DNA of 64,000 nt, from positions 20,150,488 to 20,214,487 of the forward strand of contig OZ029917.1 in assembly GCA_964023275.1 (NCBI GenBank), in the 5' to 3' direction. This DNA is from Norana najaformis. Its lineage: Eukaryota > Annelida > Clitellata > Crassiclitellata > Hormogastridae. Positions 524 to 35,311 of this stretch are shown here, one piece after another (within the stretch, counting starts at the first letter, position 1; each line of letters opens with the position of its first letter). The notes beneath the pieces are model-generated. The model saw only the letters and a program-made list of their open reading frames with translations, was not told the origin of the DNA and did no database searches. The translations under genes were made by a program, and so were the position numbers.

Positions 524-725
524 CTGGTATGATCCTTTTGATGGAAACTTTTCCACCTTGGCCGCGATCATCTGTCATGTCCTTGAAGTTAATCTTATGT
601 TTAACATTCTTTGAATCGGTGTACTCTAAAGATGATTCTCTCTTGTGATGTGCTCTCTCGATGGTTCCAGTAGCATATCGTCCATAATTTTTAAATGTGC
701 CACCCTCATTGTACGCCCAGACAGC
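524..725 (-). CDS. PARP14-like: PARP14-like exon 23: WWE domain
   Basis: Residues about 2266-2332. Reads AVWAYNEGGTFKNYG with a downstream GKVSIKRIIP, the start and end expected of a WWE domain, which in PARPs commonly binds iso-ADP-ribose or mediates protein contacts. The acceptor is a TTTTGCAG at 726-727 and the donor is CCAG|GTAAGT at 524/523. It enters in phase 0 and leaves in phase 1, so at least one more coding exon lies to the left. The PARP catalytic exons are expected there. Confidence 0.9.
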
Positions 726-18700: not shown

Positions 18701-21700
18701 TGCTTCAAAAAGAATTAAAATTAGTTGTTCTGAATTACTTAGATTTTCTTCCTACAAGAATCAAAATAACTTCCTAAGCATTCCTTAGATTAGCTCCAAA
18801 TAACTAAATAAATAAATCCAAATAACTAGATGTAAATAGCCTAGATCAGTTTTAATGGTGCTCTAAAATCATTTTCTCTACTCATCAGTAGATTTGCTAT
18901 TAAAATTTTATTAATCGCATCCTTGAAATTGCTCAGACTGTACCTACAATTCCTCAAGTTCTCTGGTGGCCAACATTCTACCCTGGACTTAGCTGGCCAG
19001 ACCAGAGAGAAAGAGAGAGGAGACCGTAAACTCTCCAGATGGAGAGCTTACGGTGGTGCCCTGTCAGCCACTAAACGGGTTGAACTGCAACATTCCCCAT
19101 CACCGATCATTCTCTTTTAATGGAATCAACTTTCATCCACAGTATACACAGCAAACCGCTTAATAATTATGAAAATATAATTTACAGATTAGCAGTTATA
19201 GGCCCATTCCAAGCATGTGTGTCAGCTAGCTCCATTTAGGCACCTGCATGGTGGTGCCTACCGGTAGATTGGCACTCTGGGCCTTAGCCTCTCAAAGTTA
19301 AAACTGTGTTGCCACCGCTGGTTAACACTGGCCATAGGTAAATTGACTCATATCAATTTCAGGTGACTTGTAAGTTTTAAAAAATCTGACAGATCAGTTT
19401 AAAGATTAAATTAGAAGTGTCCTGTCAGTAGTATCCTTCTGTGTAAACACTGAACATGGCTGCCTGGTATGACCTTGCAAGTGTGCAGTTTCAGATTGGT
19501 TTTGTCAGTTTAATTTAGTTTTTTTGCCAGCATAGTCAATTGAATTTTCTACAAATTTATGTTCACATTATCTTGGTCACATGATACAACCCGATGCAAT
19601 TTTAGCTTGAAAGACATAATATAAATTCATCAGAATACCAATTAATTAGTCAGCCATTCTAACAAACAGTCAAACAATCAAGTCATTCAGCCAAATAATC
19701 AGTCAGTAGTATGCTTACAGTATCATTCATTCAGGCAATGATCACATATGATAAATTCAGTCAAAATGCAATCATACCTGCTTTTGCTATTGCTCTGGCA
19801 ACTCCACTTATATGATCCAGCCTTGAGTTGGCTGCGTTAACAACAGTGTCGGTCTTATCTTTGGTGATATCCCCAAGAACAAGCTTTACAACCTTCCCAG
19901 AAGCCCTGTGCTGAGCACTCGCATAAATGACTGGATCAGAGTAAATTTTACTCTTAATGTCACCTTTTTCTTCATCAGCAGTCTTGATCACAACTTTATG
20001 TTTTGAACCAATTCCAAGAAGTAACAGACTATTGGAAAGAAAAAATTTCACTGCTCCCTGCTTTAGGACTGGAAAGTCTCTAGAACATACAGTCGTCAAG
20101 AACTCCTTCACTCTAGCCACACCCTGCTCAAGTGCCAGTTTTTGACCACGGATGGAGAAGCCACATTCACCTGAACTAGACAGACATTCTTTCATTTCAG
20201 CTGGCTTAATGCTCTCCCTCAACTGTTCCAGTGCTGAACTACCATGTGTCTTCAGAACCTCCATTTTACCCTTGGGTAGTGTGATAAATGTCTCATAGTG
20301 TGCAATACCACTAATGAAGTTCTTAATTCGCTGTGAAATGGCAGCAATGTCACTTTTCTTTGATACAAAAGTTACTGATGCATTAGACTCTGACAATTCG
20401 AGCAGTGGAAAATCTTTGGAAAGACAAGCCTTGTACGTCGTCCAATCCTTCTTTCTGAGAACCTCCCTCATTGGTTCATCAAGATCAATACTCTTTTCAG
20501 CAACTTCTGAAATGAGTAAGTCATATGCACGATCAAGCTGCTTTTTATCTATACTGTACAGCATCACATCCCTCTTCCGCACTTCATAAGTTGCTATCAC
20601 GTTACTCTTTGTGAAACATTCGTGAATACGATTCCTCATTGCAACCTTGTTCAGAGCTTTTGGAAATGCATCTGATTCTGACTTGAAGTCAACTAATTTT
20701 TCTGACAGGTTGCTTGCAATTTCTAGAATTTTCAACTTTGTCTGACGGACTGCCTGTGGCTGGCCAATGATATTAAAACCTTTTCCTGATTCTTCAAACC
20801 TGATATCTTTCTTATCATGAAAGAAATCCATGGCTTTAACTAAGTAAGCCTGATGTGGCCTTAAAGATGCAGATTCTTTGATTTCCTTCTTGGATCGGTC
20901 AAGTTCCTCTTCCAACTCAATTTTAATATCTCTAGCCAATTTCTCAAACTTGTCTGCATGTGTAGCAATTCCAGAATAAAACAAAACATGTCGCTGATCA
21001 TCAAACTCTGTGAGCAGCAGCTGGGTTTCCTTTTGATTTACTTCTCCACTAACTCTGTCCTTGAAACATTTCCAGATTTCATCCAAAACATTCATTTCTC
21101 CATACTTAACATTGCTAAATTCATTTATGAGGAAATCCTCACAATCTAATTTCCATTTCTGAATCACCTGGAAAGCATTAGGATCATTGGAGTCAACTAT
21201 ACAGCGTAAGGTCATCCGATTTCCATCAAACTGTGGCCACATCAAAAAGCATTTTCGTTTCTTCAGACAATGTTCAATGTGTTTCTTTTGGTGAGGAGTC
21301 AGCAGGAAGCGCAAAATTTCTCTGTCACACTCCATTTTAAAATCTGGAGGAATTGGAAGGGCTGGCAAAGAGCCATCAAAACCAGGTGGAAAAATTCCAA
21401 GGCATGGGCAGTAGAGCTGGATGTCAAGATCATGCCCATTAAATTTATGCTTCTTTGATAAAACCTTTTGAAGAGCTGTAAAAACAGATTTAGTAGGAAG
21501 TATAATTTAAATTCACAAAATAAAATCATTTACAACACAAACAAAATTCACTTGCATCTACCACAGCTCATTTCTGAGCAATGAAGACTGACAGTTGAAT
21601 GAGTTGGTTGATGTTGCAAAGCCACCAGGGAAAAAGTCCGGACAGAAGGTGACGACAAAGCATGATCACAGAAACAACATCAAAGAGCCAAAACTAGAAA

Positions 21701-24700
21701 AGTAGTCCAACAGCACTGGCAAAAAATGACTTATGAAAAAATCTAGGTGGTATACAGAACAATCAAACGCTTTTAGGTATAAAATGAATTTATTAGACTT
21801 TTCAACAGCATAAAGAAGACAAGTTTATGTGCCCCTCAAAAAGCTGCTATCGGATAAGTAAGATTAGTGCATCTGACAGGTTTAAAAAAGGCACTACATA
21901 ATTTTAGTATATATACATATATGCATACAACTAAAAACAAAACTATATGAAAAAAACTCAGTAGGTGTCTCAACAATAATGTATTCAATGGCACAATATT
22001 GGAAAAGTTCTACTTACATCTGTTAACTCCAGGCATAAAAGTTAGCAATTAATAACTACCAATTAAACTCTGCTAGATCGTGTCTTAATGTCTTTTCGTG
22101 GCTGACTGACTAAAAACTTAACTGACAAAATGACAGCTACCAGTATATGCATATCCTGAATGATGAAAACTTCTGAAATTATGTCCACATATTATGCATG
22201 CAACTGAACAGTTCTAAAGTGTCTTCTAAGAACCTCTCAAAGGCACTCCTTGCTAACCTAAAAGATGCCACAGTTCATTGTGGACAACAAGTTTATCTGC
22301 TGGCAAATGATTGGAAAATTCACTACTGGCAGTTTATGACTGATTGAATGACTCAAGTCACTAGATTGGTAAAATATACTGACTTCAAACTGTTGACTGG
22401 CTGGAAAAAATAAGTTACTCACCATCTCGTTCAGCAAATTCTATAATGGCATGACTGCCCTCAATGAAATCTACGATCTTGAGGTTGCCTCCACCATTTT
22501 TCGGACTTTCAAAGTACAATTCAAGATTCTCCTGACTCAGTTTTCCAATGGAATGAACCTGGATGCATTTCGTGATCTGAACTCTCTGCACTGAGATCAT
22601 TTTTCCTTGAAAAGGACGACTGCATATGATTGTCTTCACATTTTCATAGTCTGTAATGAATGGCAAGTCTGATTACAGATGACAAGTATAATATACAACA
22701 TTATGCACAATTTAATATATATGATGTATATAAGCCAGTTCACATGTAAGGTGAGCCCCAATTTAAGCCCAAAACATCATACAAATGAATAGGCATGCCC
22801 TAAAGTAATCACTGCCCCTCAATAATGTACAAGCATCAAACAGTGCATTATCTTCAGCTCCATCTCATAAAATGCTAATACTACATTTTGAAAAGGACTA
22901 AGTCATGCCAGTGGGAATGGACACAACACATATTTTGCCACTACCAATTCCACGATGGGCTTTGTCAGATTTTTGTCTTTGGTAGTCCACATTTTATCTG
23001 AAACATGTATAATTAACTGGAACCTATGGTATCAGAATTTATGAGTTTTATGCACCTGTAACATGTCACATAATGTAGCTATTATGAAAATCTATCCAAG
23101 CGATCACAGCAAAAAGTCACTCTGCATTTAAGCAATCACTATACTTGTCTATGAGAATAGATTACATAAATCTGCAATTGCTAAACCTATTAGTTTGAAT
23201 AAATATTGTAATATATGATTATGCCTGAGAAAACCTTCACAAAGTCAGCCGATGGACATATGGCGTGTTAACAACAAGTAGGAAAAAAACAAAACTGGAT
23301 TTGATAATACACTTGATTGGGCTGGCATTGCTACATAATTAGACGAAAACTGCAGGTTTCTATCACGAATAGTAAAAGAGGTACAGTCCTTCAAGGATGT
23401 AGGTGTCTCTTTGTTGCTATTTTTGAGAAATCACAAGTTAAAGTTCACCATAACTACGACCTGACCTAAGTCACTGTGTCTAGAGGTTGTGAATGTCAAG
23501 CAGAATAGCAAACTGGAGCATAACCATCTGCTTCTGAGACTGCCATTAATGAAGTTTCCATTAAAAATGGTTAAGATGAATATTTATGAATATTTACATG
23601 ACCTGGTCATTTGTGTAACAATATAGGCACACAAATTCAAATTAGGGCACTAAAGGGGTTACATTAAATTAACATTAAACTTAACATCAAATTAAGTTTT
23701 TGTTGCAGCACATCAATAATACTGAAAAAATACACTTCAAAATTCTACATAATTTAACACAGTTTAACATGTAAGACAACAAGGTATATAACTAAGCAAA
23801 GAACTTATTCTGACCTATAACACCCATCTTGTGCCTTCTTGCCTTCAGAACATGTTTCTTGCAAATTAACTTTCCCAACTTTGTGAGGGTTTTCAGACAT
23901 GGTCACATATGTTAAATAATTTTTACATGAATGTATTAATGCACTGCTAAAATCATGTTTTGGTAGAGCTATTATAAATAGAATGGTCATTCGCATAACA
24001 ACAGCTATGAAACAGAAATGTAGGTCTGACAAATTCTTTGCTGTAGAAGTAAAAAATCACAGATTATTTCCAAATATATATGGAAGTATTTAAACTTGCC
24101 TCTAAACACAAACATTCCAGTCACGTTTTCATTACATGAACTCTGAAGGTCTGTTTAGCTTAACATCCAAATGTTCATCTTGCTCACCCCATCTCACTCT
24201 GCCCATCCCCTGGGGTTCACGATATTTTGTGTATCTTCTTATTGAACTTTTCTATGTTACATGTGTGGTGGAACTTTGAACTGTGATATTTATCTAGTGT
24301 TTAGATAAGTAGTATTCTTAGGTTGCTTGCAAGTGTAAGGGTTAGATTATTAAGAATCTTAATTAATTTCTTTCCTGCCATGTTTATATTTTTGAGCATA
24401 TCCTCAAACTGCCTCAGATGTCCCAACTGGTTAAAAGGGGTTCAATAAAGCCATAGTCATCAGGGAAGCATCACAATAAAGCACAATGCAATTTGTCAAA
24501 CTTTTACATAACCAAATCATAAGTTGTTCATTAGTTGTTTTCAGGCCTTTTCTTATAGAATAAATTTCTCAGCTAATAGGCAGCCATACATGGTACACTG
24601 CTGTTTCTTGCCAAGAGGTTATAAATGTGCTTACCATTAATTAATGTTCCCAGCTGGAACAAACTAGATATCTTCCTTTCAAAGACACTTACTCCGGTAT

Positions 24701-27700
24701 ATTTAGACTAAAGGGAACAAGAGACTCAGGAAAGAAACAAGAACTGTAAAGAAAACAACTTGCAACAGCTTCATAAATCATATAAAATAAAACAATACCA
24801 CATTTCCAGTACACCTGTTAAACATTCTTACCTGGTTGTTTGGCATACTGAACCAGAGCCATGCCTGGACGACTACTGTATGTTATCTTCTTAACTGGTG
24901 CTTTTCCAGCTTTTTCTGCAAACTCTTGCAGTGTGTTCGAGTTAATCTTCAGTGTATCAAGTTTGGTGAAGAGCAGCTTATCTGGGTCAACTTCCTCCAA
25001 CGTCAGCAATGGAGGAGGGCGGCTAGGCATCAGTGGTTCCACCGTAAGCTTACAGCCTTCTAGCACATGATCCTTGCTATTTACACGCTTCACAACTGTA
25101 ACAACATTTTAACAGTTTCAGCTGCACTAACAACATCATATGTGCAATTAAGATGATACAACAATAAAGTAGCAATAATTAAAATAATTACGACGTAATA
25201 ATAAGGAAGTATGTTATAAAATAATGACAACAAAATTATAGCTATTTACACTTATTCAATAAAAATACTGTCATATCATAATTGACAGCATAACACAATA
25301 AAGAAGTGAAGATTATAATATAATATATAACAGTAGGATAAAAGCACATGAACTAATATATTATAACATAAATATAGCACATTCATATCTAAATAAGGCA
25401 AAAATCAAGATTAATACTGGTAAGGTAACTTAACGTGAATGACAACGGCATGCTAGAGATCCTAAAATAAGTTTACACGGAAATTCTGCACCAATTTGGA
25501 CCAGAAATCAACATCACACTGGAACAGTCCCATCTCTAGATCACATACGGGCCATTGTAAGGCAGATGGAGCCAGTCTGATTGATTGCCTGGGCCTGAAT
25601 GTGCAGCACAGTGGTCTATTGGTAACGCATTTGGTCAATGATCATGCAATTGCGGGTTCGACTCCGTGTAACGACCCTGGGCAAGTTGTTTGTGCACACC
25701 AGGCCTCTGTCACCAAGCAGTAAAATTTGGTACCAGTGTAAGCTTGGAAGTAAACAGCAAGTCTTGCGATGCACTAGCCCTTTGTCCAGGACCTTGGGAT
25801 TCATCCATTGCCGGTCCAAGGGCCTAAGAAAAAGAATTGAGTGCCTCCTCTATGTTTTACTTGTGGGATATGGGATACTTTACTTAACTGCATAAGCTGC
25901 CTATGGCAAGGAATCTGAAGCATTAACTTAGGCTGGACACAAAATCCACCTGTTTAAAGCTTACACACTACCAATCCTTTGTTATTGGTCTGAGACGTGG
26001 ATGCTCACATATGCCCTGGAGAAGAATCTGGTTGGTTGCCTTTCAACAAATGTGTCTGAGAACTCAGGATCCCACACAAAACCTACATGGCACACATCGG
26101 CTAGCATAGACAGCACTTTTGTTAGGCACACAAAAGGCGCTAAGTTAAGTGTCTAGAAAGATAACTAATCACAATGCAGTTGGTATGACCTTCTGGGTTT
26201 CTGAATGTGATGACAGCTGTTTGACTGCCTTCTTCGTAAAATAGCTCCTCAAAGATTTCTCCTCCAGATCTCTTTCTATTTTCAAAGTACATCTCGATCA
26301 CTTCCCTTGATGTTTCATGTTTGAAACCCTGGATCTTAACTGCAAAAGGTCCACCAACATCCGGCCAACTGTCAAGCAGGGTTGCTGTCAGCTTCACTTT
26401 GGACAACAGATGTTTACGTTTCTCAGCCACACGGGCAGCATCTATAATTAATTATAATTAGAAACACTAACTGAAAAAAATAAACACCATTTCAACAAAT
26501 TCTAACCTGTGTATTGGATTGAGCAAATTCTTTATTAATGATAGCTGTACCAATTTAGAACTTCATATCAAAGAAGGTAATGCCACAAAATTATTTTCAA
26601 AGTTTTCTGATTTAAATATGTTATGTTTTCAGAGGCCTCACAAAGCTCCAATAACTGCATCGATACACTGATTATTTTGTAAATATTGCATTAAATTCAC
26701 AACATATTCAGCACATTCATTAAAAAATCAAACTGAAATGAAGAAAGATTATCAATAAATGTCCTCTGTTAAGACAAATAATTATTGTAATTACATTGTA
26801 ACACTGTAATTGTAATTGAAGATTTATATAGCACCTCTTCAAGAGAGATTCATCAAGGTGATCCAGATCTAATGGCAGAATACCTGACAGAAAGAAATGG
26901 TTTCAAGCGCTTACAGAACAGAGGTAAAGAAAGACCAAGGAGCTCATATCAGAGGGTGCTAGGCAACCTGTTCCAGAAAGTTGGACCAACCGCAGCAACG
27001 CACATTAGAGAATAGTCAACAGGCACTCAGTACCCCAGGTTGTATATAAAAGTTTCTATTATATTGTTTGGTGAATGATAACCTTCAGCATGCCGATATA
27101 GAATAACTGCAGCATCCTTTGACAGGATTTGTATAGAGTCCACTGTTCCACCACCTGATCGTTTATTCTCAAAATAGAGTGTGAGGCTGTCCTTGCTCAG
27201 GTCCTTCAAGCAGCCACGAATCTCAACAGTACGAGACTTAACATGGTCTGCTTCGACTTTTCTCTCAGTTGTTTCAACAGTTGATTGTGAAGAGCACAGA
27301 GCAGTGACCGGCTTTCGAACGTTCATGACACTTTTGCCAAGTGTAATCTGTCCTTTTTCTATTACTTGCTCTGCAACTACAGGTGTCAGTGGCAATTTTT
27401 CAGTTTGATACACATGCAAACAATTCTACAACCACTAGAAATTTGTTGCAGTAATCAACAGTAAAAATCTACAAATGTTGAAAAAGTGACAAAAACACTT
27501 CATGGTATGGCATCTAGGCACAAAAGTACACTTTCAGCTCAGTTACCATTAGTGACCTGCAGCCCTAGATTTACAGAGATCAATTTCTTTGCAAATGGTC
27601 TATATGCAGTGTGCCGTGGCAATACTGGAATGGTTCAAACATTGATTCTTCTACAATACAATACAACTGGAATTTGATCATGTCCCTTACATAGTTCAGA

Positions 27701-30700
27701 AGTGCATATTGAAACAGAGCAACAATAAAAATCAACCAAAACGAGACTGGATGAGGTGAGATCTCAGTTTAGAGTGAACGATAGTAACAATGAGCCATGA
27801 TAGTTCAAAATGGAGGGACCTGCAAATTGTGAATGAGCACCAGCCAAAAACAAAGCACGTACAAAGAACAGCGTAAGACGCCAGAAGATGCTGCTAGAAG
27901 AACAGCATTACAAAGTGTGTACAAAGAGCTGTTGTCACTCGCCTGCTGGGTCTTTAAAAGTCACCATCGCAGTTCCACTCTTTTCATCATAGGTGAACCC
28001 ATCTTCGGCAATTTCTCCACCTCCTGACCGTTTCTTGTTTTCAAGGAACATCATCAGTGTATGCGATTTGGTTCCTGCAGGAATCTCACTGATTTCCACT
28101 TGGCCAGGAATCTCTGTACTTTTTGGACTGGAGTCCGTAAGGGCGCGTGGTGATGATGTTGATGACGATGGGCGATATACTTCCAGCATGCTTCCATCTG
28201 TGTACTTAATCTTTCCCTTTTCCAGTAAGCTCTTTGCCACTGTACCAATTTTGCACAAAATACAAACGAAAGTTATTCATATAAAATAAAGCATAATATT
28301 ATTAAGCACAAAATATTAAATACTTAAATTATATCACAATACTAAGTGTAAATGTAAAAATATCATAAAAATAATAATACAAAAAACAATTTATAATAAA
28401 TCCATAATTGTAATTGTAATTGTAACCACGACAGTTTACACAGCACTGTCAGTAGCAAGCTACTTCAAGGGTGTTTACAATGTCAAATGTCGGCACGCAC
28501 AAGAGTCCAACAATTAATGATAAATGGATGATGTACAAAATCAAAATCAAATGCTGATCCTAGAGTTAGTCAGTGATCAGACAATTTTAACTGTTTAATC
28601 TCTATTTTGTTGTGATTAAGAAAAATGTTGAAGTTTAGAAGGTAAAGCTTTAAAACCAGCAAACATTCTAGTTTTGAAGTGTTCAATCTGTATGTAACAG
28701 GTTCACTGATAACTAATCTGTATGTAACAGGTTCACTGATAACTGTTTGGATAGTGTCAAACTGACTTCTGTTACCAGGAAATCATGGATAGGTATGCAA
28801 AGGAAAGCCAGAATCTTTGCAGTGGCATTGAGTGGGAAGGCCTTCAACCAACCAACTGGCCATTGACATAAGCACCTGCAAAGACCTGGTGGCATAAGGG
28901 TTATCTGGATGTGGTACGTTCTACCATCAGTCCAGGGAGTGCCAGTTAGTAAACATAACTGTGTGCTCTGAAAGCTTCATTTGACTGTTGTCATTCTTTA
29001 AGCTCAACACCATATGGACCAGGAACTCTGAACAATGTTTTGACTGTCAACTGGGACACCACTGGTTGTGTTCTACATGTGTGCAAGTGCCTGCCAGTGG
29101 TGATATTTCCAGCTATTCAAGCACAACTTGCTTACATATCAACTTATTGTTCTTAAGAGCTCTATGTCATTTAGGCTATTAAGGGGCTCCTTCAAGAAGT
29201 ACTTAGAAGGTGGTGCCATAAACTTTTCAGTAATAGATATAGCCAAAAACATCCAACCTGACATTTTTAAATAGTTCATTAGCTATTAATTGAGGCAGAG
29301 TCAAATAGGCCATTGTGTCTGCAAAACAATAAAGGAAGGCAGGTCGGTCCAAGAAATTAAAGATTAAACAAAATGGCATAAAACATCCGTGTACTGGATC
29401 GTAATCGTAATCAAAAACTTATAAAGCGCCACTTCAAGATGAAACTCATCAGAGGCGCTCCCGGCCCAATTTCCCATGACTAATGGGGAATAACACGGTC
29501 TTCAGACGCTTGCGGAAAAGAGAGGGAGGAAGAGAGAGGAATTCCCGCCTAAGGTCACCAGGCAGGTTGTTCCATGAGGCAGGGCCAACAACGGCAAAGC
29601 TGCAGCACTGTGCAGTAGTAGTGCAAGCCGTAGGAACTACCAGGTGTCCCTGGATTGCCGATCGCAGCAGTCGGCGGCCAGGGACAGAAGAAACAGGGAC
29701 ACAGAGTTCCCTTAGATAAATAGGTGCACTGCCAACAAGGCAGCTGTGCACAAGGGCCAGAATTTTAAACTAGATGCGTTCTCGAATTGGAAACCAGTGG
29801 ATTTTTTCCAGCATGAATAAGGAGATATGGCCAAACTTTGGAATGCCACCAATCAAGCGAGCTGCAGCATTTAGGACAGACTGAAGTTGGGAGAGGGAAG
29901 AGGATCCAAGACCGGCAAAAACCCTTGATGTCAGCAGGATACTGGAATCCAGTTGTTTCCAAATCAGTTTCAAATGGAGATCTTCATAAAATAATTCTAT
30001 GTCAAATATCAAGTCAAAAGTCAAAACCCATTTCCTACGCTAAAGACATGCTGCCGTTAAAACTGGGTTGCCCTACCATGGCAGTTCTCTCACCACTTTG
30101 CATTAGCTTTCTCATATTTAAAACCCTACATTTAAGACAGAAACAGACTGAGCCTTAGCTTAAATGGGACTCAAAAACATTCTGGAAGAAGAGTAGAACT
30201 CTCACCCTCAGCATCTTGGAATTTAACAATAGCTCTTCCTGTGGCTTCATCCAAACTGAGTTCCACAACTTCACCACCACCTGATCTCTTCTTATTTCCC
30301 AGGAACAACTGCAGAATGTCTTTGTCTGTCCCCTTTGGGATCTTTTGAATCTCAATGGTATCTTCCACCTCCAAAGCTGTGGGAAGCTCTTCTGGCACTG
30401 GCAGAATTTCTAAGGTCATCTGCTTGAACTGGATACAACCAGCTTTCAACAGGTTCTGCGCAACTGTTAAGACAAGCAACTTAAAGTGAACACTAAAATA
30501 ACAGTTTTATTTGTTATTCTTTGTTAACAAAATGCATATAGTCATTTACATAAAGAGGTCAGTGATGGTAACAACTAAAGAAACTACAGACCAGTTTTAG
30601 CAAACACCTTTTCCACACAATCTTGGAAAGTGTGCAATACTGTTCGTTTTTGTGAAACAACAGATGTTTCCTTTATGAAAAGTCTACTTCAGTATATTAG

Positions 30701-33700
30701 GCCTGTTATGATTATCTCATGCAGGACCTACGGATGGCATAGCAAATATTTCCATAAAAAAATAAAATTCAAGTCAGACCATGGGTACAGATAGGTATGT
30801 AGGCATCATGGTTGTAATATGAGGTCAATTTCCTTATCCAGTGCCTTTCTATCAGCATCCAGTGCTATAATGCCACAGCACTTTGAGACATGCTTACTAA
30901 TGTTGTGGAGAAGAAAGCCTGGCTTCTCAGATACCCATTAACAGCCCCTAGAGTATTTTTTGTTCCTGAGGGATTACACTTACCTCAGGTAAAAACAATA
31001 ATAATAATAACATTGACAGCAATAAAAAAGCAGCAACAATAAGAATAATGATAATGCTAGATTTACCCTGATAATCTTCAAACTGAACAATCGTCTGTTC
31101 ATCTCCAGTCTGAAAATGCATACTGACAACTGTACCACCTCCATTTTGTTCTCTCTCCAGCAGAGCCAACAGGACATCATCAGTCATGACTTTAGGAATT
31201 CCACTAACAAGGACCTCTGCAGATGGAAGCTTGCCTTCTTCATTGTCTCTCTCCTCATCGAAAACGTCACTGGTCATGCGATTAAACTCAGATGGAGGAG
31301 GAGGAGGCACAACTGCAAACTCTGTATTGCCAAACTTGACTAATCCTGCCTCTAGAATTCTCTGGGCAACTAAAAATTCAAAGAATCATTACATGCCTGT
31401 ACAACTGATAAGCATCATTGCAGAACTCTGTTACACATTTTGGAGGCTGAAATCTCCAACCAATGAAAAGATATTTCAAGATTTCTGTTTCACTAGTGTC
31501 CCTTAGCGAACTCAGTCATAAAATGAATGCATAAACATATATAATTATACATATATATATAAAATGAATTTACAGACCATACACTGTTGGTGTGAAGATT
31601 AGACAGCAAGGCAGAGGACTGGCCAATACCCATACGTTCTCATACACTGAGGAAAAGTAATGAAGTTGCTAACACTTTGTTCCCATGGCTGCCTCTTGTG
31701 ATTTGTTTAAAGGACTCCTCTGTTTTTTTCATACAAATTTTGATTCCTACATGAATTACATTACATTTCAATTACATCACATCTCAGAGAACTATCACAA
31801 TCTCTGGAAACTTTCAATTCATAAGCTCTCAATTTCATCACTGTGAAAACGGCAATTGAGCAGAACCAGCTAGTAATAGTAAGAAGAACCAATACCAAAG
31901 CCTGCATTGGATGAACAGGAAGCAGGAGAGCAAATGAATTAATGACATACCACAAAAGTCTTCAAAAGTAACCATCACATTATCCCCATCTTGGATCAAC
32001 TGTTCGATGTTGCCACCTCCTGATTTTTCCTGGGTCAGAATAATTTCAAGAAACTCCACCATAGCTGATGGAACATTCTGAATGCATACGGTACGAGACA
32101 ATGCATCCTTGTCACCAGCAATGCTGGTGTCATCTTCAATCTCTACATCAACATTGTCTTGTTCTGGCTCGTCTTCACCAACACTGACAACGATACCTTC
32201 TGCAGGTGGAGGTAACAGGGCCTCAGGAGGAATCTTGGAGAAGAAGAGCTTCTTTCCTTTAACTTCAATAAATTTCTGGTCTAAGAGACTAGCAGCAACT
32301 GTTGTCAATAGAAATGCACACACAAAAATACATAGCACCTCAGTTGCTCTAAATACCTCAGTATTTATATGAAAGCAAATACCGGTAATTACAGAAGATT
32401 TTGTGGAGTAATATGTATGCTTACAAAATAATTGCAGAAAACAAAAAAGTCAACTCATATGATCTTCAACTGCAGCATCTGATATGAATATATACAAATC
32501 CACTTATTTTGCTACATTAAAATAACTAGAATTAGCTGAATGAATAGCCAAATTAAGTCCACATAAGAACCCTTTCTTCAACATCATAAAGCAAATACAT
32601 AAACTCTGAAGTTTAACTTTGGCAGGAACTGCTCAGTTCTTATGTTATTACTTAGCTGTGGCAAATTTTCCACCTCTCTTTTAAATCACAACAATAAACA
32701 GCCGAAAATATTCTACACGTTTTTTTAACAAACAGGTTTGCTTATCAGTAAGTCTATGTGCTACATATATTCAGTAGCTACCTGGTCTCCAAGAACGGGT
32801 TGCCCACGTATTGGATTTGCCTGTGGGAACCAGACCCTAGTCATATAATTAATTAAACTAAATATTAGGTACTCAAGTCATGGAATTCCCAAAAAGTACA
32901 TAATTAGGGTGGCACCCAAGTTCTTCATACATGTAGAAGTTTGTACCTGACCTGATCAATAATGATGAAAAATACCACTCGATTTAATTAGAAATTTCAT
33001 CAGAATTAGCAACAACAGTGTCAGTAAAATGCTTAAAGTCAGTAGAGCAATTATTAAGAGTCATTACATAAAGCACTTCTAGATATTTCTGTTACAGCAA
33101 AAGTAATGGCAAGACAGCAACATACAAAGTAAAACACATTAAGCAAAATATGAATCTTGGTAATTATCTTAGTAATCAAACACCACAAACCTTCCTGTTC
33201 TTCGAAAGATACAGTCACCGTTTCAGAACTGATATCAAAGCTGTAGTCTGATATTGATCCACCACCTTTCTTCGGACTTTCAAGAAACAGTTCAAGCATT
33301 TCATTCACTTCATTTGAGACGCTGCGTACAAACAATGTACATGGACTGGGAGGGACCAGAACCTTCATTGTATGCCCTTGTATTGTTATTACTCCAGTCT
33401 TCAGGAAGAATTCAGCAACTATTTTCGACAGACAAATTACACCATTTGTAGGATTAATCATGACTTTGCCACAAACACAGAAGATCCAGCTAATCAGTGT
33501 CTAATCGCTGTACGCCAACTACTTGTTTCTGTTTTTGGCGATATTCAGTCTTAAATGGCTAGTAATAAACTTCTGAATCCTGTAAAGCCTGAATTCTTTC
33601 TTCTAGTCATAAGCCAATAACTCCATAAATTTGAATGCCTTATGTATGTTCAGTTGGTTGGTTTACTTATTAACTGTACTGAACGTGCACACAATTTGGG

Positions 33701-35311
33701 TGTGGTGTTTGATTCCACCATGTCATTTTCTAACCATGTTCAGACCATATGCAGATCAGCTCAATTTCACATTTGGGATATACACAGAATCAGACCTCTT
33801 TTGCCTCAAACTATCTTAATCCAACTAGCTAGTGCATTGGCGTCCAGCAGACTTGACTACCGTCATCATTTCTTATTGGTATCACTAAGGGTGATCTGCA
33901 CAAACTACAAATCGTTCAAAACTCTCTCATCAGGGCCATAACAAACACCCCTAAATAAATATCAGCATATTAAGCCAATATTAAAATAACTGCACTGGCT
34001 GCCCACTGAGCAAAGAATCCAATTTAAAATCTGTCTTACAGTTCACAAAATTCTGCATTTAAATCAGCTGACCTATCAGTGTTCCATGCTCACTCCTAAT
34101 ACTAACAGACATTGCCTTCAATCAGTGGACACTGTGACTCTTGCTGTGCACTGTACCTGAACAGTGTTGGGCTCTCGGGTCTTCTCGGCAGCTAGTCCAA
34201 AGCTTTGGAATTCACTGCCCAGTTCAGTTCAGTCTGTCAACTCTTTGATGTCATTCAAGTCTAAACTAAAGATGCATCTCTTTCAACTTGCTTACCCAAT
34301 ATAGCCTGGCTTCTGATTTCTCTGACCTATCAGAATTCGACCCGGCTTCTCCAACGGATTATGATTTTGACTGCAATTTTCACTTGAAGTGACCATTGAC
34401 TGATATTTTGGGCATTACAATAATGGTGCTATAGAAGTCTTTAGATTAGATTAGACTATGCTGCATTCCAGACAGAGAAATTAGAGAGTAATGGTGAGCA
34501 AGAATTAGTGAATGAACAAAAGGCCACATTCGAGAAAGAACAAATGCTTGCAACAGAATCTGTATCTCATCAAAGACCAAAAGTCATGATGAGGAAAGGC
34601 AGTACGTAATAAGCATTCTTTTCTCAAAAGCAAAAAGGAAGGTTAAGAACTATAATATTGAGAATAGATGGAGAATCATAAGGTAACCTGGAAGGTAGCA
34701 GTTAAGACAACCATTGCTGCAATGGTATGGTAAATAAATGATAATGATCTGGCCTTTAGTTCATCCATCTAGATATCAAATCACAATGACACCTGGATGC
34801 ATCAGAGACCATAAATGTGTTACTCAGCTACGCAAACAAAACAGAAAGGCAATTAAAACTTTTGGATTCCACAGCCCACTGTAATAACCACTTAAACCAG
34901 CTCTTCTGTCTTCTCTCCGTGTTCTCCTGCTATTAATGGCTAAAGATTATGGTCTTCATATGGTATCTCTGGACAACCCCTCTGATCTGACACAGTGCTC
35001 ATGAATATGCTGATCCTTGCCCTGAACAACCAAGTACTTAGGGCTTTAGAATTTTCTGAGTTTGCAATTTAAACCACAGACATTTACATTTAAACAAGGT
35101 TCAGGTATCAAGTATACAGAAATTCACCTGCAGGATCTTCAAATGTTATCCAAGCCACTTCATGCTCTTCATCATATTGAAAATCATGTATAGATCCACC
35201 ACCCTTCCGCTTGTTTGAAACGAGGGCCTCCAGCACATCTTCGTAATCCTTAAGGACCCCTGCGACGAGCATTGTACAGCCATTCTTGATTTCATCCTTT
35301 GATTCGCTCAT
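524..35311 (-). CDS. PARP14-like: PARP14-like macro-PARP gene, 23 exons placed, 3' end off the window
   Basis: Overall entry; exons are listed separately. The architecture is RRM-like x10, KH-like array, macro1, macro2, acidic linker, macro3, KH-like, WWE. The KH-macro-macro-macro-KH-WWE order is that of vertebrate PARP14, a mono-ADP-ribosyltransferase whose macrodomains bind or remove ADP-ribose and which is linked to innate immunity in vertebrates. The exon lengths sum to 6,997 nt and every phase matches, giving 2,332 codons plus one base; that is already longer than human PARP14 (about 1,800 aa). The transferase domain should follow WWE and is not in the window. The start ATG at 35309-35311 has an in-frame TGA two codons upstream. 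Whether the protein is an active transferase cannot be told here. Confidence 0.93.
754..1040. repeat. Diverged tandem duplication, unit about 157 bp
   Basis: GTTGACTAGCAACAAAATAT occurs at about 757 and again at about 917. Similar AT-rich continuations follow both, including AGTATTATTTGT and a TTTGTAACATTCCTTA / TTTGTGACATTTCTTA pair. It lies in the intron between exons 22 and 23. Confidence 0.6.
1440..1560 (+). repeat. LINE family B 3' end with ATTACA-type tail
   Basis: Contains the family B hallmark TTTGTTTTGACTGAGCGCC, then GTGAATAAGCTGGTCCC, GCGCTGTAGAAATCT and a tail GATTACAATTAC. Related ends occur near 11.45, 17.2, 35.0, 38.0, 40.3 and 43.15 kb. Confidence 0.65.
1650..2330 (+). mobile_element. 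Decayed CR1/L2-like LINE, RT core plus C-terminus
   Basis: Bases 1,660-1,780 translate to the reverse-transcriptase motif LVLLDWSAAFDTVDHSLLL, containing the catalytic-motif sequence AFDTVDH. A second block at 2,080-2,170 reads GPKFWNSPPASV, the usual LINE C-terminal motif. The part between them is deleted and frames are broken. It ends in an AT-rich TAATAA tract at 2,305-2,340. It lies in the intron between exons 22 and 23. Confidence 0.75.
2645..2720 (-). repeat. Short LINE family A-like tail fragment
   Basis: GCTTATACAGCACCTTTTAAGG followed by a degenerate remainder resembles the family A end (TATATAGCGCCACTTCAAG) in reverse orientation. Short and diverged. Confidence 0.3.
2985..3179 (-). 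CDS. PARP14-like: PARP14-like exon 22: end of the C-terminal KH-like segment
   Basis: Residues about 2201-2265, starting ERKLKSLEEQCSVQIIID and ending LELFAKQ. In PARP14 this position, between macro3 and WWE, holds the last KH-like domain; assignment rests on position and the beta-alpha look rather than a strong motif. The acceptor is ATTTTTAG at 3180-3181, the donor AAGCAG|GTAAAT at 2985/2984. Both ends are phase 0. Confidence 0.85.
3960..4240 (-). CDS. PARP14-like: PARP14-like exon 21: charged linker and start of the last KH-like segment
   Basis: Residues about 2107-2200. A charged stretch (TADDDSKEDTGRKK, then VYKTRKAKPTKR) looks like a disordered linker with a possible nuclear localisation signal. 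It is followed by LVLRIYGLSEFNVSSAISDI and CKETKLEVTL-like alternation that fits a KH-like fold. The acceptor is GTTGTTTCAG at 4241-4242, the donor GATCAG|GTTTAT at 3960/3959. Enters phase 1, leaves phase 0. Confidence 0.87.
6006..6209 (-). CDS. PARP14-like: PARP14-like exon 20: C-terminal part of macrodomain 3
   Basis: Residues about 2039-2106. Begins GRGSVTIKDLAEAIVDEVDSF and has ILDQGMLDDFIEA, the usual last helices and strand of PARP14-type macrodomains. It continues the PPVGVG loop of exon 19. The acceptor is TACTCACAG at 6210-6211, the donor GCAG|GTTAGA at 6006/6005. Phase 1 at both ends. Confidence 0.92.
6250..6300 (+). repeat. Short LINE family A tail fragment
   Basis: CACCTCTGAGGAG, then CTTGAAGAGGCCCTATATAAAT, matches the family A 3' end in plus orientation. 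It lies 40 bp upstream of exon 20. Confidence 0.5.
6810..7400 (-). mobile_element. Decayed CR1/L2-like LINE, RT C-terminal region
   Basis: On the minus strand, frame-shifted pieces read in order LDYCNSILFRVTKSK (7,280-7,230), SLARAIANTSKY (7,190-7,160), LHWLLVQQRICFRLGL (7,140-7,090) and a degraded tail matching the usual GPKxWNSLP region near 6,930. These are the standard C-terminal reverse-transcriptase landmarks of CR1/L2-type LINEs. Several frameshifts show it is dead. It lies in the intron between exons 19 and 20. Confidence 0.65.
7941..8111 (-). CDS. PARP14-like: PARP14-like exon 19: middle of macrodomain 3
   Basis: Residues about 1982-2038. Reads DGLQGGMAVSSGGRL, CKCIFHITAKD and SIAIPPVGVG; the last is the equivalent of the loop written AFPAIGTG in macro2. 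The acceptor is ATCATTGCAG at 8112-8113, the donor GTTG|GTCAGT at 7941/7940. Phase 1 at both ends. Confidence 0.9.
8270..8330 (-). repeat. LINE family A tail fragment
   Basis: ATATTTATATAGCACCTTTCAAG followed by a degraded CTCAGTAGTGC resembles the reverse complement of the family A end. Confidence 0.4.
8695..8727 (-). CDS. PARP14-like: PARP14-like exon 18: 33-nt microexon of macrodomain 3
   Basis: Adds 11 codons reading GKLSRAILCAA, which is the helix after the ADP-ribose-binding strand (compare GVARAIAKA in macro1 and TAVSKSLLIAA in macro2). Without it macro3 lacks that helix. The acceptor is GTTGACTTCAG at 8728-8729, the donor GCTGCAG|GTAGTC at 8695/8694. Phase 1 on both sides, so inclusion or skipping keeps frame. 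Found by looking for the missing helix, so it is inference supported by splice sites and motif. Confidence 0.8.
9145..9155. repeat. Target site duplication of the RTE insertion (copy 1)
   Basis: AGCTATGATCA, identical to 9863-9873 on the other side of the RTE element. Confidence 0.85.
9156..9862 (-). mobile_element. 5'-truncated RTE-clade LINE with 11-bp target duplication
   Basis: An open frame encodes the C-terminus of an RTE-type ORF2: FVYLGSEMKAGGGSE, VLIYGCESWS, RRMKWAGHVLRM and GRPKRRWIDCLEEDL. The frame from 9,768 down to 9,163 has no stop, so the copy is fairly young. The stop is followed almost at once by a short CATGA tandem tail, which suits RTE elements with tiny 3' UTRs. Perfect flanking repeats AGCTATGATCA (9145-9155 and 9863-9873) mark the insertion. 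It sits in intron 17 of the PARP14-like gene, same orientation as the gene. Confidence 0.92.
9863..9873. repeat. Target site duplication of the RTE insertion (copy 2)
   Basis: AGCTATGATCA; its edge is one base from the donor hexamer GTGAGT (9880-9875) of exon 17. Confidence 0.85.
9881..10003 (-). CDS. PARP14-like: PARP14-like exon 17: start of macrodomain 3
   Basis: Residues about 1930-1970. Reads VDCQLGDIKFLVKKEDITRS then SDAIINGTNDKLNLKM, the first strands and the NxT/N binding strand of a macrodomain, with extra residues between GDI and DAII. The NAAN of macro1 is replaced by NGTN. The acceptor is CTTACTTTAG at 10004-10005, the donor ATGG|GTGAGT at 9881/9880. Phase 1 at both ends. Confidence 0.9.
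10004..10528. other. Intron 16, AT-rich, no feature seen
   Basis: Between exons 17 and 16. AT-rich sequence without reading frames or recognisable repeats. Confidence 0.6.
10529..10904 (-). CDS. PARP14-like: PARP14-like exon 16: acidic poly-Glu linker between macro2 and macro3
   Basis: Residues about 1805-1929. Starts AFEKVLQSSGG (end of macro2 helix), then GGGSDDEADVDIKDNDN, a run of 14 or so glutamates from a GAG/GAA tract, more D/E/S, then basic HGRGGRRQRRHHHGG. Predicted disordered. The acceptor is GTTTTTTAAG at 10905-10906, the donor TCGG|GTGAGA at 10529/10528. Enters phase 0, leaves phase 1. The opposite strand is also open but only because of the repeat. Confidence 0.88.
11130..11545 (+). 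mobile_element. LINE family B C-terminus and 3' end
   Basis: Translates in pieces to FHSKLKSHLFKKSYPDPS (11,270-11,325), the last conserved block of a CR1/L2-like RT ORF, followed by the family B 3' end (GACTTGACACAGCACTCGTG, AATAAGCTGATGCC) and a GATTACAGTTACAAAT tail. It lies in intron 15. Confidence 0.65.
11640..12180 (-). mobile_element. Decayed LINE, APE endonuclease domain
   Basis: The minus strand reads LNETWLQPNDKLAFISDL near 12,060-12,000 and IMGDFNIHFDVANRC near 11,745-11,700. These are two landmark motifs of LINE apurinic-like endonucleases (E-T-W-L and G-D-F-N-x-H). The frame is broken elsewhere. It lies in intron 15 in gene orientation, next to the oppositely oriented family B end. 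Confidence 0.75.
12476..12700 (-). CDS. PARP14-like: PARP14-like exon 15: C-terminal half of macrodomain 2
   Basis: Residues about 1730-1804. Reads VIRKLMSSTLQMASDDGM, SLAFPAIGTGIKL and IQFVIYEKDQETLD, the binding loop and last strand. The acceptor is TTACTTTAG at 12701-12702. The donor is taken as TTAGAT|GTGAGT at 12476/12475; the frame stays open past it to 12,395, so a read-through end is possible, but the GTGAGT and phase 0 fit exon 16. Confidence 0.88.
13377..13610 (-). CDS. PARP14-like: PARP14-like exon 14: N-terminal half of macrodomain 2
   Basis: Residues about 1652-1729. Reads VDAIFDSTEKDLNLARTAV, SKSLLIAAGSGLQAECQ and YKLPCKAVYHGACVRWD, typical of PARP14 second macrodomains. The Asn of the NAAN motif is Asp here (FDST). 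The acceptor is TTCTTTGGCAG at 13611-13612, the donor GAACAG|GTATGA at 13377/13376. Phase 0 at both ends. Confidence 0.92.
13620..14334. other. Intron 13, no feature seen
   Basis: Between exons 14 and 13. AT-rich, with only small spurious frames; I see no recognisable element. Confidence 0.5.
14335..14483 (-). CDS. PARP14-like: PARP14-like exon 13: linker and first strands of macrodomain 2
   Basis: Residues about 1602-1651. A basic, Ser/Gly-rich linker (GPGRNSSGRRPRGKAQTGS) leads into GITVSLIRGSIANAK, the first two strands of macro2, where the usual G-D-I is GSI. The acceptor is TTTTTAAAG at 14484-14485, the donor GCTAAG|GTGAAG at 14335/14334. Enters phase 1, leaves phase 0. No single long ORF marks it; it was found by domain and phase continuity. 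Confidence 0.85.
14600..16490 (+). mobile_element. Possible Ty3/gypsy-like LTR relic
   Basis: Similar segments at about 14,650-14,760 and 16,365-16,475 share words such as GTGATATATACTC, TGGACATTGACATTTACTGC and AGATCTG, like a pair of decayed LTRs in direct orientation. Just before the second copy, 16,065-16,190 reads GDNVQARQQNYMLKMPSGKV in one frame, which loosely fits the GPY/F end of a Ty3 integrase. The interior has no intact frame. It lies in intron 12. Tentative. Confidence 0.4.
16596..17045 (-). CDS. PARP14-like: PARP14-like exon 12: main part of macrodomain 1
   Basis: Residues about 1452-1601. Reads DPRLEEECRQHVKNKGEIHP, VIHTVGPIWKDG and SLPFLSCGIFKFPKKKAA, the substrate loops of a macrodomain, and ends in a Ser/Pro-rich linker. 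It continues the NAAN strand at the end of exon 11 without gap. The acceptor is TTTGTTTTAG at 17046-17047, the donor TTCAG|GTAATT at 16596/16595. Phase 1 at both ends. Confidence 0.95.
17165..17300 (-). repeat. LINE family B 3' end
   Basis: Reverse-oriented copy: TAATCGTAATC tail, then AAAGCTAAGTCACGGGAACC, TATTCACAGGTGCTCAGTC and AAAACAAAATCGATAGGC. Close to the copies at 1.45 and 38.0 kb. Intron 11. Confidence 0.65.
17420..18060 (+). repeat. Interspersed repeat D, copy 1
   Basis: Matches 23,220-23,690 as an inverted copy: shared blocks include CCAGCCCAATC, GACTTTGTGAGGGTTTTCTC, CATGTAAATATTCAT with ATCTTAAC, and TGCCTTAATTTGAA. No coding capacity seen; unclassified. Intron 11. Confidence 0.65.
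18310..18960. repeat. Degenerate minisatellite-like tract
   Basis: Variants of AAATTGCTC / GAATTACTTAGATTTGCTC recur every 30-60 bp through this AT-rich stretch (for example near 18,330, 18,360, 18,495, 18,545, 18,720, 18,930). Spacing is irregular, so it may be an old tandem array or simple-sequence drift. Confidence 0.35.
19778..21475 (-). CDS. PARP14-like: PARP14-like exon 11: KH-like array and start of macrodomain 1
   Basis: The largest exon, 566 codons, residues about 886-1451. Starts by closing the last RRM (ALQKVLSKKHKFNGHDLDIQ), then has about six or seven weak repeats of 65-75 residues with the beta-alpha pattern expected of the PARP14 KH-like array (for example around FNIIGQPQAVRQTKLKI and FSIRGQKLALEQGVARV). 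It ends KLVLGDITKDKTDTVVNAAN plus GVARAIAKA: the GDI and NAAN motifs that bind ADP-ribose in active macrodomains. The acceptor is CTGTTTTTACAG at 21476-21477, the donor GCAG|GTATGA at 19778/19777. Phase 1 at both ends. The repeat count is by eye. Confidence 0.95.
21478..22422. other. Intron 10, no feature seen
   Basis: About 0.95 kb, AT-rich, between exons 11 and 10. No frame or repeat recognised. Confidence 0.5.
22423..22650 (-). CDS. PARP14-like: PARP14-like exon 10: RRM-like repeat 10
   Basis: Residues about 810-885. Starts with the end of the previous RRM (DYENVKTIICSRPFQGKMIS) and carries QITKCIQVHSIGKLSQEN, LELYFESPKNGGGNL and HAIIEFAERDG. The GGG turn and final hydrophobic strand are the repeat hallmarks. 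The acceptor is TTCATTACAG at 22651-22652, the donor GATG|GTGAGT at 22423/22422. Phase 1-1. Confidence 0.93.
23220..23690 (-). repeat. Interspersed repeat D, copy 2 (inverted)
   Basis: Reverse complement matches 17,420-18,060: GCCAGCCCAATC, GACTTTGTGAAGGTTTTCTC, GTCATGTAAATATTCAT and GTGCCCTAATTTGAA in the same order. Divergence is substantial with indels. Intron 9. Confidence 0.65.
23865..24050 (+). repeat. Partial copy of repeat D
   Basis: Begins with AACTTTGTGAGGGTTTTC then CAGACATGGTCACAT, like 17,955-18,000 (CTTTGTGAGGGTTTTC, CAGGCAGGGTCACAT). Later sequence (CATGTTTTGGTAGAGCTATTA) also resembles 18,150-18,200. Intron 9. Confidence 0.4.
24832..25095 (-). CDS. PARP14-like: PARP14-like exon 9: divergent RRM-like repeat 9
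   Basis: Residues about 722-809. Starts VVKRVNSKDHVLEGCKLTVE (end of RRM 8), then LLFTKLDTLKINSNTLQEF and GMALVQYAKQPG. It is the one repeat that lacks the GGG turn (AGKAPVKKITY instead). The acceptor is TTGTTACAG at 25096-25097, the donor CCAG|GTAAGA at 24832/24831. Phase 1-1. Confidence 0.92.
25096..25490. other. AT-rich part of intron 8
   Basis: Dominated by TAATAA/ATAATAT-type sequence; no frame or classified repeat. Confidence 0.5.
25600..25900 (+). repeat. tRNA-derived SINE
   Basis: AGTGGTCTATTGGTAACGC is a pol III A box and GGGTTCGACTCC, about 40 bp on, is a canonical B box. The sequence after (GACCCTGGGCAAGTTG, then CCTCTGTCACC and AGCAGTAAAATTTGG) looks like the conserved CORE-type middle part known in many SINEs. 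Flanking stems do not pair as a working tRNA, so this is a SINE or relic. Intron 8. Confidence 0.75.
26190..26441 (-). CDS. PARP14-like: PARP14-like exon 8: RRM-like repeat 8
   Basis: Residues about 638-721. Starts DAARVAEKRKHLLSKVKLTA, then FAVKIQGFKHETSREVIEMY, ENRKRSGGEIFEE and TAVITFRNPEG. The glycine turn is GG rather than GGG. The acceptor is AATTATAG at 26442-26443, the donor GAAG|GTCATA at 26190/26189. Phase 1-1. Confidence 0.93.
26800..27010 (-). mobile_element. LINE family A, C-terminus and tail
   Basis: The minus strand reads VAAVGPTFWNRLPS and LPLFCKRLKPFLS with one stop, then GCTATATAAATC and a GTAATTGTAATT-type tail (plus 26,800-26,825). Same family as 29.4, 38.6 and 59.4 kb. 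Intron 7, ending about 70 bp downstream of exon 7 on the gene strand. Confidence 0.65.
27083..27376 (-). CDS. PARP14-like: PARP14-like exon 7: RRM-like repeat 7
   Basis: Residues about 540-637. Starts VAEQVIEKGQITLGKSVMNV, has a linker (SQSTVETTERKVEADHVK), then TVEIRGCLKDLSKDSLTLYF, ENKRSGGGTVDSI and AAVILYRHAEG. The acceptor is GACACCTGTAG at 27377-27378, the donor GAAG|GTTATC at 27083/27082. Phase 1-1. Confidence 0.93.
27943..28239 (-). CDS. PARP14-like: PARP14-like exon 6: RRM-like repeat 6, GC splice donor
   Basis: Residues about 441-539. Starts VAKSLLEKGKIKYTDGSMLE, then a Ser/Pro linker, QVEISEIPAGTKSHTLMMFL, ENKKRSGGGEIAE and TAMVTFKDPAG. The acceptor is AATTGGTACAG at 28240-28241. 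The donor that keeps the phase-1 pattern is GCAG|GCGAGT at 27943/27942, a GC donor. The nearby GT would break frame with exon 7. Confidence 0.9.
28405..28475 (-). repeat. LINE family A tail fragment
   Basis: AATTGTAATTGTAATTGTAA tail followed by GTTTACACAGCACTG and CTTCAAGG, a degraded family A 3' end in reverse orientation. Confidence 0.45.
28685..28744. repeat. Perfect 30-bp tandem duplication
   Basis: Two identical 30-nt units (28685-28714 and 28715-28744) starting AATCTGTATGTAACAGG. Confidence 0.9.
28930..29230 (+). repeat. Interspersed repeat C, copy 1
   Basis: Shares ACTGTGTGCTCTGAAAGCTTCAT, ATGGACCAGGAACTC, TTCTACATGTGTGCAAGTGC and a degraded ACTTAGAAGGTGGTGCC end with 44,815-45,090. 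Unclassified; possibly another LINE 3' region. Intron 5. Confidence 0.55.
29400..30040 (-). mobile_element. LINE family A, RT C-terminal ORF with one stop
   Basis: The minus strand reads LSQLQSVLNAAARLIGG, HISLFMLEKIHWFPIRERI, then one in-frame TAG, then FKILALVHSCLVGSAPIYLR, VVGPASWNNLPGDLRREF and LFRKRLKTVLFPI. These are in-order CR1/L2-type landmarks. The 3' end is TTATAAAGCGCCACTTCAAG in reverse, with a short GTAATC tail at 29,400. Intron 5. Confidence 0.85.
30206..30463 (-). CDS. PARP14-like: PARP14-like exon 5: RRM-like repeat 5
   Basis: Residues about 355-440. Starts VAQNLLKAGCIQFKQMTLEI, then TIEIQKIPKGTDKDILQLFL, GNKKRSGGGEVVE and RAIVKFQDAEG. Closest in look to repeat 6. The acceptor is GTCTTAACAG at 30464-30465, the donor GAGG|GTGAGA at 30206/30205. 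Phase 1-1. Confidence 0.94.
30480..31066. other. Intron 4, no feature seen
   Basis: Between exons 5 and 4; AT-rich with a short AAT-rich patch near 31,000. Nothing classified. Confidence 0.5.
31067..31369 (-). CDS. PARP14-like: PARP14-like exon 4: RRM-like repeat 4
   Basis: Residues about 254-354. Starts VAQRILEAGLVKFGNTEFAV, then a VPPPPPSEF proline linker, AEVLVSGIPKVMTDDVLLAL, REQNGGGTVVSM and TIVQFEDYQG. The acceptor is AATTTTTAG at 31370-31371, the donor CAGG|GTAAAT at 31067/31066. Phase 1-1. Confidence 0.94.
31951..32298 (-). CDS. PARP14-like: PARP14-like exon 3: RRM-like repeat 3
   Basis: Residues about 138-253, the longest repeat exon. Starts VAASLLDQKFIEVKGKKLFF, has an acidic linker (SVGEDEPEQDNVDVEIEDD), then TVCIQNVPSAMVEFLEIILT, EKSGGGNIEQ and VMVTFEDFCG. 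The acceptor is TATTGACAACAG at 32299-32300, the donor TGTG|GTATGT at 31951/31950. Phase 1-1. Confidence 0.93.
32400..33060. other. Part of intron 2, no feature seen
   Basis: AT-rich intronic sequence without recognisable frame or repeat. Confidence 0.5.
33191..33418 (-). CDS. PARP14-like: PARP14-like exon 2: RRM-like repeat 2
   Basis: Residues about 62-137. Starts VAEFFLKTGVITIQGHTMKV, then CTLFVRSVSNEVNEMLELFL, ESPKKGGGSISDY and TVTVSFEEQEG. The acceptor is TCGAAAATAG at 33419-33420, the donor GAAG|GTTTGT at 33191/33190. Phase 1-1. Confidence 0.93.
33610..34460 (+). mobile_element. Decayed CR1/L2-like LINE (second family), RT C-terminal half
   Basis: In-order motifs on the plus strand: LGVVFDSTMSFSNHVQTICR, LIQLASALASSRLDY, a frameshift, then LHWLPTEQRIQFKI-like text near 34,000, PKLWNSLPSSV-like text near 34,200, and KMHLFQLAYPI near 34,290. 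It ends with GGTGCTATAGAAGTC and a GATTA tandem tail at 34,440-34,458, unlike the ATTACA tails of families A and B. Intron 1. Confidence 0.85.
34880..35075 (+). repeat. LINE family B 3' end, degraded
   Basis: Contains CTCTGATCTGACACAGTGCTC, ATGAATATGCTGATCC and GGGCTTTAGAATTTTCTGAG, in the same order as the copy at 11.4 kb. Intron 1, about 50 bp downstream of exon 1. Confidence 0.55.
35128..35311 (-). CDS. PARP14-like: PARP14-like exon 1: start and RRM-like repeat 1
   Basis: Residues 1-61, starting MSESKDEIKNGCTMLVAGVL, then NKRKGGGSIHDF and VAWITFEDPAG. The ATG is preceded in frame by TGA two codons upstream, which supports it as the start, although a 5' non-coding exon further right is possible. 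The donor is GCAG|GTGAAT at 35128/35127, phase 1. Confidence 0.9.

Follow-up and report, generated by a model that had tools for sequence, protein, structure and literature searches.

How does a PARP14-like gene come to carry ten RRM-like units at its N-terminus, which genetic unit was multiplied, and what would such a row of units bind? These questions arise from a stretch of 64,000 nucleotides of the annelid Norana najaformis (positions 20150488-20214487 of C5, in a 608-Mb assembly of 17 contigs), hereafter the window. Human PARP14, described as a fast-evolving antiviral and genome-stability factor, possesses eight KH domains and three RRMs, against the ten RRM-like units of the window gene (PMC13224862); an earlier, sequence-only reading of the window, which had stated that vertebrate PARP14 has far fewer RRMs, is thus right as far as the human protein goes. 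Two of the human RRMs cap the KH row, and one is held on a flexible linker (PMC10450202). In basal animals and lancelet, PARP14-like genes are often duplicated and carry macrodomains, some of the sponge genes having a WWE domain and some an RRM; the available text of this survey reports RRM presence but not arrays, exon phase, or unit number (PMC4245714).

The gene lies on the minus strand and was modelled with 12 exons, their splice sites being chosen from the sequence. The span 22423-35311 proposed earlier for the array is upheld, running from the ATG at 35311 to the exon 10 donor at 22423. In this model, phase 1 holds for introns 1-11 and for the intron 12 donor, in keeping with the phase 1 previously assigned to introns 1 to 12. 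The lengths of exons 2-12 (228, 348, 303, 258, 297, 294, 252, 264, 228, 1698, and 450 nt) are all multiples of three, so that the frame allows any of them to be skipped or duplicated without a frameshift, as had been claimed. The last base of every modelled exon is a G. Donors are GT in 11 of 12 introns, the remaining one being the GC of a GC-AG intron in the middle of the array (intron 6, window 27942). Exon 10 has an alternative candidate acceptor at 22668, likewise in phase 1, and downstream of exon 12 the candidate splice sites are of more than one phase, the likeliest by eye forming a mix of phases 0 and 1. Introns 9 and 11 (22651-24831 and 17046-19777) have in common a transposon-like stretch of 647 alignment columns, inverted and 68% identical.

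The exon boundaries are offset from the domain boundaries: each intron interrupts its RRM between β3 and α2, and a typical exon encodes α2-β4 of one RRM, a linker, and β1-α1-β2-β3 of the next. Exon 1 (35128..35311, minus strand, as all exons of the gene) holds the ATG and β1-α1-β2-β3 of RRM1, ending in a KRKGGG turn. Exon 2 (33191..33418) supplies α2-β4 of RRM1 and then the front of RRM2 (PKKGGG), exon 3 (31951..32298) the back of RRM2, a 41-residue linker, and the front of RRM3 (EKSGGG), and exon 4 (31067..31369) the back of RRM3, a 24-residue linker, and the front of RRM4 (EQNGGG). The backs of RRM4, RRM5, and RRM6 and the fronts of RRM5, RRM6, and RRM7 follow in exons 5 (30206..30463, KKRSGGG), 6 (27943..28239, KKRSGGG), and 7 (27083..27376, KRSGGG), respectively. 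Exon 8 (26190..26441) bears the back of RRM7, a weak profile match, and the front of RRM8, in which KRSGG is not followed by a third G; exon 9 (24832..25095) the back of RRM8 and the diverged front of RRM9; and exon 10 (22423..22650) the back of RRM9 and the front of RRM10 (PKNGGG). Exon 11 (19778..21475) includes the back of RRM10, the KH region, and the start of the first macrodomain, which alone stays below the cut-off, and exon 12 (16596..17045) the remainder of that macrodomain. The GGG turn, attributed before to exons 2-10, is thus found in exons 1-7 and 10 (8 of the 10 units), exon 8 having GG and exon 9 neither. RRM n is made of exon n and the start of exon n+1, the ten units being coded by exons 1-11; exon 11 is therefore needed for the tenth RRM, and the idea of one RRM per exon had the register wrong, the introns falling inside the RRM at the β3/α2 boundary.

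Several observations support this register. In the alignment, the codon split by the intron occupies one and the same column in 9 of the 10 units, and lies three columns off, beside an indel, in R9. In exons 2-10, the unit profile finds its two halves in reversed order, positions ~50-77 coming before ~2-53; the profile, however, derives from these very units, and its back-half matches, at E 1e-4 to 0.2, are weak. Independently of it, the start of exon 11 matches positions 52-80 of PF23085, the Pfam model of the third PARP14 RRM, with 17.5 bits, and, of the 40 PF23085 matches obtained across the genome, 28 terminate at profile position 50-54, with one beginning at 52. The linkers (0-41 residues, as the units were cut) lie between β4 and β1, i.e., within exons, and the intron-bearing β3-α2 turn remains short. 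On the predicted exons, the unit of structure is the RRM, whereas that of the gene is the permuted exon. Since the intron lies inside the RRM, skipping or doubling an exon would yield a hybrid RRM and no clean removal.

The ten units (R1 to R10), 74-80 residues each, were delimited manually in the protein predicted from the spliced exons. Nine of them pass the PF23085 cut-off singly (E 3e-6 to 2e-18), R10 being the top scorer with 66.6 bits, and R9 stays below it (14.8 bits vs 24). The joined array of 912 residues reaches 335.8 bits (E 2e-102) over nine stretches, and so is not a product of chance; ten RRM-like tandem repeats are indeed present, and a search of the window with a profile of the ten units revealed no further one (lowest other E about 5). 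Against solved chains, the unit profile finds NMI (E 3e-11), the PARP10 RRM (4e-10), hnRNP A1 (2e-5), and IFI35 (0.0014).

The structure prediction that had been suggested per unit was performed on exons 5 and 9, each folded as an exon. Exon 5 alone is predicted by AlphaFold2 as a permuted RRM (pLDDT 80.7, pTM 0.67), whereas the prediction for exon 9 is poor (pLDDT 56.4). In a Foldseek search with the exon 5 model, RRM proteins make up most of the 50 matches listed, with ~50 residues covered; the best E among these is 0.014 and none is below 0.001, a weakness that we think stems from the permuted order of the elements in the model. The RRM fold of the units is thus indicated by the exon 5 model together with the profile matches to the PARP10 RRM and hnRNP A1. 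It is conceivable, though we consider it rather improbable, that the exon is also the working unit, each cassette folding alone as a circularly permuted RRM, so that the protein has two registers and splicing, duplication, and recombination swap cassettes freely. If true, the gene would encode an immune-type ADP-ribosyltransferase with an arm adjustable, one exon at a time, in both length and specificity.

Among solved chains, NMI comes first with the unit profile. The Pfam model of the NMI and IFI35 NID domains (PF07292) matches the joined array in a stretch lying across an exon, where residues 531-619 align with profile positions 1-89 of 90 at 96.8 bits, vs a cut-off of 25. This span takes in the back of one unit together with the front of its successor and coincides with the exon register. 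Run against the re-registered single units, the same model gives matches up to E 1 in 9 of 10 and reaches its cut-off in none. The exon register may explain why the NID model fits across two half-RRMs. NMI and IFI35 are small proteins that are not known to carry macrodomains or an ART domain. The N-terminal domain of Rrp7 is also listed among the closest known systems.

Downstream of the array, the parts of a PARP14 follow on one strand, in the order RRMs, KH region, macrodomain pieces, WWE, and ART. In the KH region, KH_PARP14_1 exceeds its cut-off (26.8 vs 21), and KH_PARP14_2 (17.4 vs 27) and KH_PARP14_4 (14.9 vs 22) stay below theirs. Three macrodomains were found, in pieces, with PF01661 matches of 77.4, 28.5, and 25.0 bits (cut-off 22) in the open frames 16573-17070, 13371..13643 (second macrodomain), and 7798..8148 (third macrodomain), the latter two on the minus strand. 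The frame 12395-12700, at 20.6 bits just under the cut-off, is probably the remainder of the second macrodomain; the frame 9861-10067 has no PF01661 match. The WWE exon (524..725, minus strand, likely ends placed by eye) matches PF02825 with 28.9 bits vs 21.1, and the PARP14-specific WWE_1 model with 14.2 vs 27. The ART exons lie just outside the window, in open frames at 7627-7412 and 6575-6264 of L009, where PF00644 is over its cut-off in one frame (27.7) and just under in the other (24.3 vs 26.7). Compared with solved chains, frame 6264-6575 finds PARP14 first (E 1.1e-21), then PARP15 (2.8e-20) and PARP10 (4.5e-17). These ART exons are missing from the list of a genome scan with the PARP model, probably because introns split them, but single-exon scans do find them. 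These domain matches support the identity of the gene as a PARP14, with a predicted ADP-ribosyl transferase activity. Elsewhere in the window, a neighbouring gene (55956-57836, minus strand) has flavin amine oxidase matches (PF01593) in two frames (E 1.5e-22 and 1.5e-9), and simple repeats at about 60700-60950 and 63400-63600 read as short repeated peptides in several frames.

Domain order is the same as in human PARP14, and the last RRM of the window gene is the closest to the Pfam model of the third PARP14 RRM. The likeness extends to the tandem RRM pair that adjoins the KH row in the human protein; here R9 and R10, joined without a linker, lie beside the KH region. R1 and R2, at the opposite end of the array, are likewise joined without a linker. 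R9 lacks the GGG turn, and human RRM2 is not known to have one either.

The array has relatives in the same genome. The PF23085 search returned 40 matches, of which 6 are in the window and 2, on C9, coincide with ordinary RRM matches. Front halves number 11 in the largest C4 cluster (one partial), 6 in C14 (one partial), 5 in C12, 3 each in C2 and at C4 2909847, and 2 at C4 2956434, with single ones at C4 2924283, on C13, and at two places on C1. These numbers are lower bounds, the C4 2909847, C4 2924283, C4 2956434, C2, C13, and both C1 places having been seen in part; the unit scan left out the C11 locus (L036). On the strand of the C4 and C14 clusters, PARP-model matches occur ~17-20 kb beyond them. 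For 31 of the 32 complete front halves outside the window (the partial fronts C4 3052282 and C14 15874427 being left out of the count), the best GT within 12 bases of the same block is in phase 1; the remaining one lacks a GT altogether, so that no best GT falls in another phase. Where several GTs were available the most consensus-like was taken; in a few rows a GT of a different phase is present as well. With 31 of 32 donors in phase 1 at the same place, the intron site is therefore a property of the family. The unit devoid of GT is the first of the smaller C4 cluster (C4 2957931-2958083), and this copy may therefore be decaying.

It is hardly credible that the array consists of mis-joined separate genes or is an assembly artefact. 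The gene model is admittedly based on sequence alone, but it has a single ATG, no stop, one phase, and splice sites at every exon end; its RRM halves complete one another only across introns, PARP14 parts come after them on one strand, and comparable clusters recur on other contigs. As read from the genomic DNA, the array and its phases are real.

The origin of the array by exon duplication, as suggested in the sequence-only reading, finds support in the family and less so in the window. Identity among the ten units averages 24% (range 11.3-43.6%, highest between R5 and R6), and none of the 7 inner branches of their tree is well supported. This tree, one of the checks proposed, was run, but the descent of the exons cannot be read from it. 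With such a mean identity and such a tree, the window array is therefore old. Its introns show no homology indicative of a recent duplication and, apart from short matches and one transposon-like stretch, no sign of a common origin. In the family, by contrast, the shared intron site is joined by an adjacent pair of C4 units (3048538 and 3050342), which group at 100/99 and have 31 of 50 residues equal; by their sequences, this is a duplication inside one cluster. An exon of the large cluster, C4 3050162-3050379 (L042), contains an internal repeat of linker and β1, 76% identical over 113 columns.

The smaller C4 cluster provides a possible case of loss. Its exon at C4 2958627 is most like C4 3056396 (82.7%, others ≤71.1%), and the intron upstream of it is most like that of C4 3054244 (81.6%, others ≤75.7%). 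The 300 bases after the exon have no clear partner (73.3-76.1% to all five places), and stretches beyond them again match what follows C4 3056396 (73-74%). Since C4 3054244 and 3056396 are less alike (72.9%) than the two matched pairs (87.6 and 82.7%), the simplest account is that the smaller cluster lost two exons, with gene conversion as an admissible alternative. Exon gain and loss are thus documented, at the level of genomic sequence, for the gene family rather than for the window array.

Counterparts in other clusters exist for three units. R9 pairs with C12 22810308 at 100/97, a unit after which one further unit comes; R2 pairs with a unit of C4 (97/91), and R10 with one of C14 (82/85). 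The R9-C12 and R2-C4 pairings imply that portions of the array are older than the paralogs. No front half corresponding to R9 turned up in the C4 and C14 clusters. The last pair, with R9 lacking GGG and R10 closest to the third PARP14 RRM, appears to have been kept as a cap beside the KH region; such a fixed R9-R10 cap, seen again only in C12, may be inferred.

These data bear on whether the ten units are ancient and fixed, an old long array having been kept here while vertebrates lost most of it, with the exon phases as an unused relic. The age of the units, with their mean identity of 24%, fits this possibility, as do the counterparts of R9, R2, and R10, by which some positions predate the split of the paralogs. 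Counts differ among clusters, however (C12 5, C14 6, C4 11, window ten, all but the window's being lower bounds), and the C4 locus displays an adjacent duplicate and a two-exon difference, although this is change in the family and not in the window gene. We regard an ancient and fixed array as a tenable but somewhat less than even prospect. The reading that we consider likely is that of a PARP14-like gene whose N-terminus was enlarged to ten units by duplicating a permuted phase-1 exon cassette, giving a multivalent arm. A symmetrical phase-1 exon would have been duplicated to generate the ten RRM-like units, the repeating genetic unit being a permuted cassette of α2-β4, linker, and β1-α1-β2-β3. 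Because the cut lies in the short β3-α2 turn and every modelled exon ends in G, splicing any two cassettes together would keep the frame and give a whole RRM of hybrid make-up, its seam codon specifying V, A, D, or G. Clusters in this genome could therefore gain or lose units by whole exons.

The same properties raise the question of isoforms with differing numbers of units, produced by alternative splicing of exons 2-10. Exons 2-12 are divisible by three, with phase-1 ends and a final G, and hybrids modelled for single skips score like natural units (mean 47.8 vs 48.5 bits, 9 cases, with a profile built without the two units concerned); such hybrids stay RRM-like in their sequence. The GC donor of intron 6 also belongs to a class that is often weak. 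On the other hand, the hybrid scores more than 4 bits lower in 3 of the 9 cases, and a profile score is blind to the packing of the two halves. We consider such isoforms unlikely.

As to function, the units upstream of the R9-R10 pair would most likely form a multivalent arm that serves the ADP-ribosylating C-terminus in targeting and assembly, a flexible arm that extra units would lengthen. The canonical stacking positions of RRMs (RNP2-2, RNP1-3, and RNP1-5) are aromatic in only 2 of 30 cases in the ten units, which therefore do not show the canonical pattern, and in 11 of 126 over 42 units including the ten of the window. In five ordinary RRM loci of the same genome, used as control, 13 of 15 are aromatic (scored by eye, 3 of 8 loci being dropped for strand). 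With these aromatics nearly absent (2/30), the RNA-binding modules of the sequence-only reading are at most putative. The arm might accordingly be a device for protein-protein contacts or self-assembly, like the NIDs of NMI and IFI35, and not a binder of nucleic acid. The contrast with ordinary RRM loci and the place of NMI as best solved relative point this way, and NMI and IFP35 bind each other through their NIDs (PMC8698480). Conversely, the recruitment of human PARP14 to nascent DNA requires its RRMs, which have been modelled with AlphaFold on ssDNA and RNA (PMC12891911). Lack of aromatics is, moreover, compatible with RNA binding. RRMs without them, such as those of hnRNP F/H, can bind RNA through loops. 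A purely protein-binding arm is given slightly less than an even chance. Taking together the recruitment role of the human RRMs, the few aromatics, and the NID pairing, we prefer the reading of a multivalent arm, whose partners are about as likely to be nucleic acid as protein. Such an arm may bind by avidity.

A role has been given to PARP14 RRMs only recently (PMC12891911). The genome of this annelid harbors several clusters of PARP14-type RRM exons, which differ in number and have the same cut site, and thereby provides a natural series for the effects of RRM number. Whole exons could be gained or lost in these clusters without breaking the frame, and the family would be a clear instance of exon duplication in which what is copied is a domain in permuted form.
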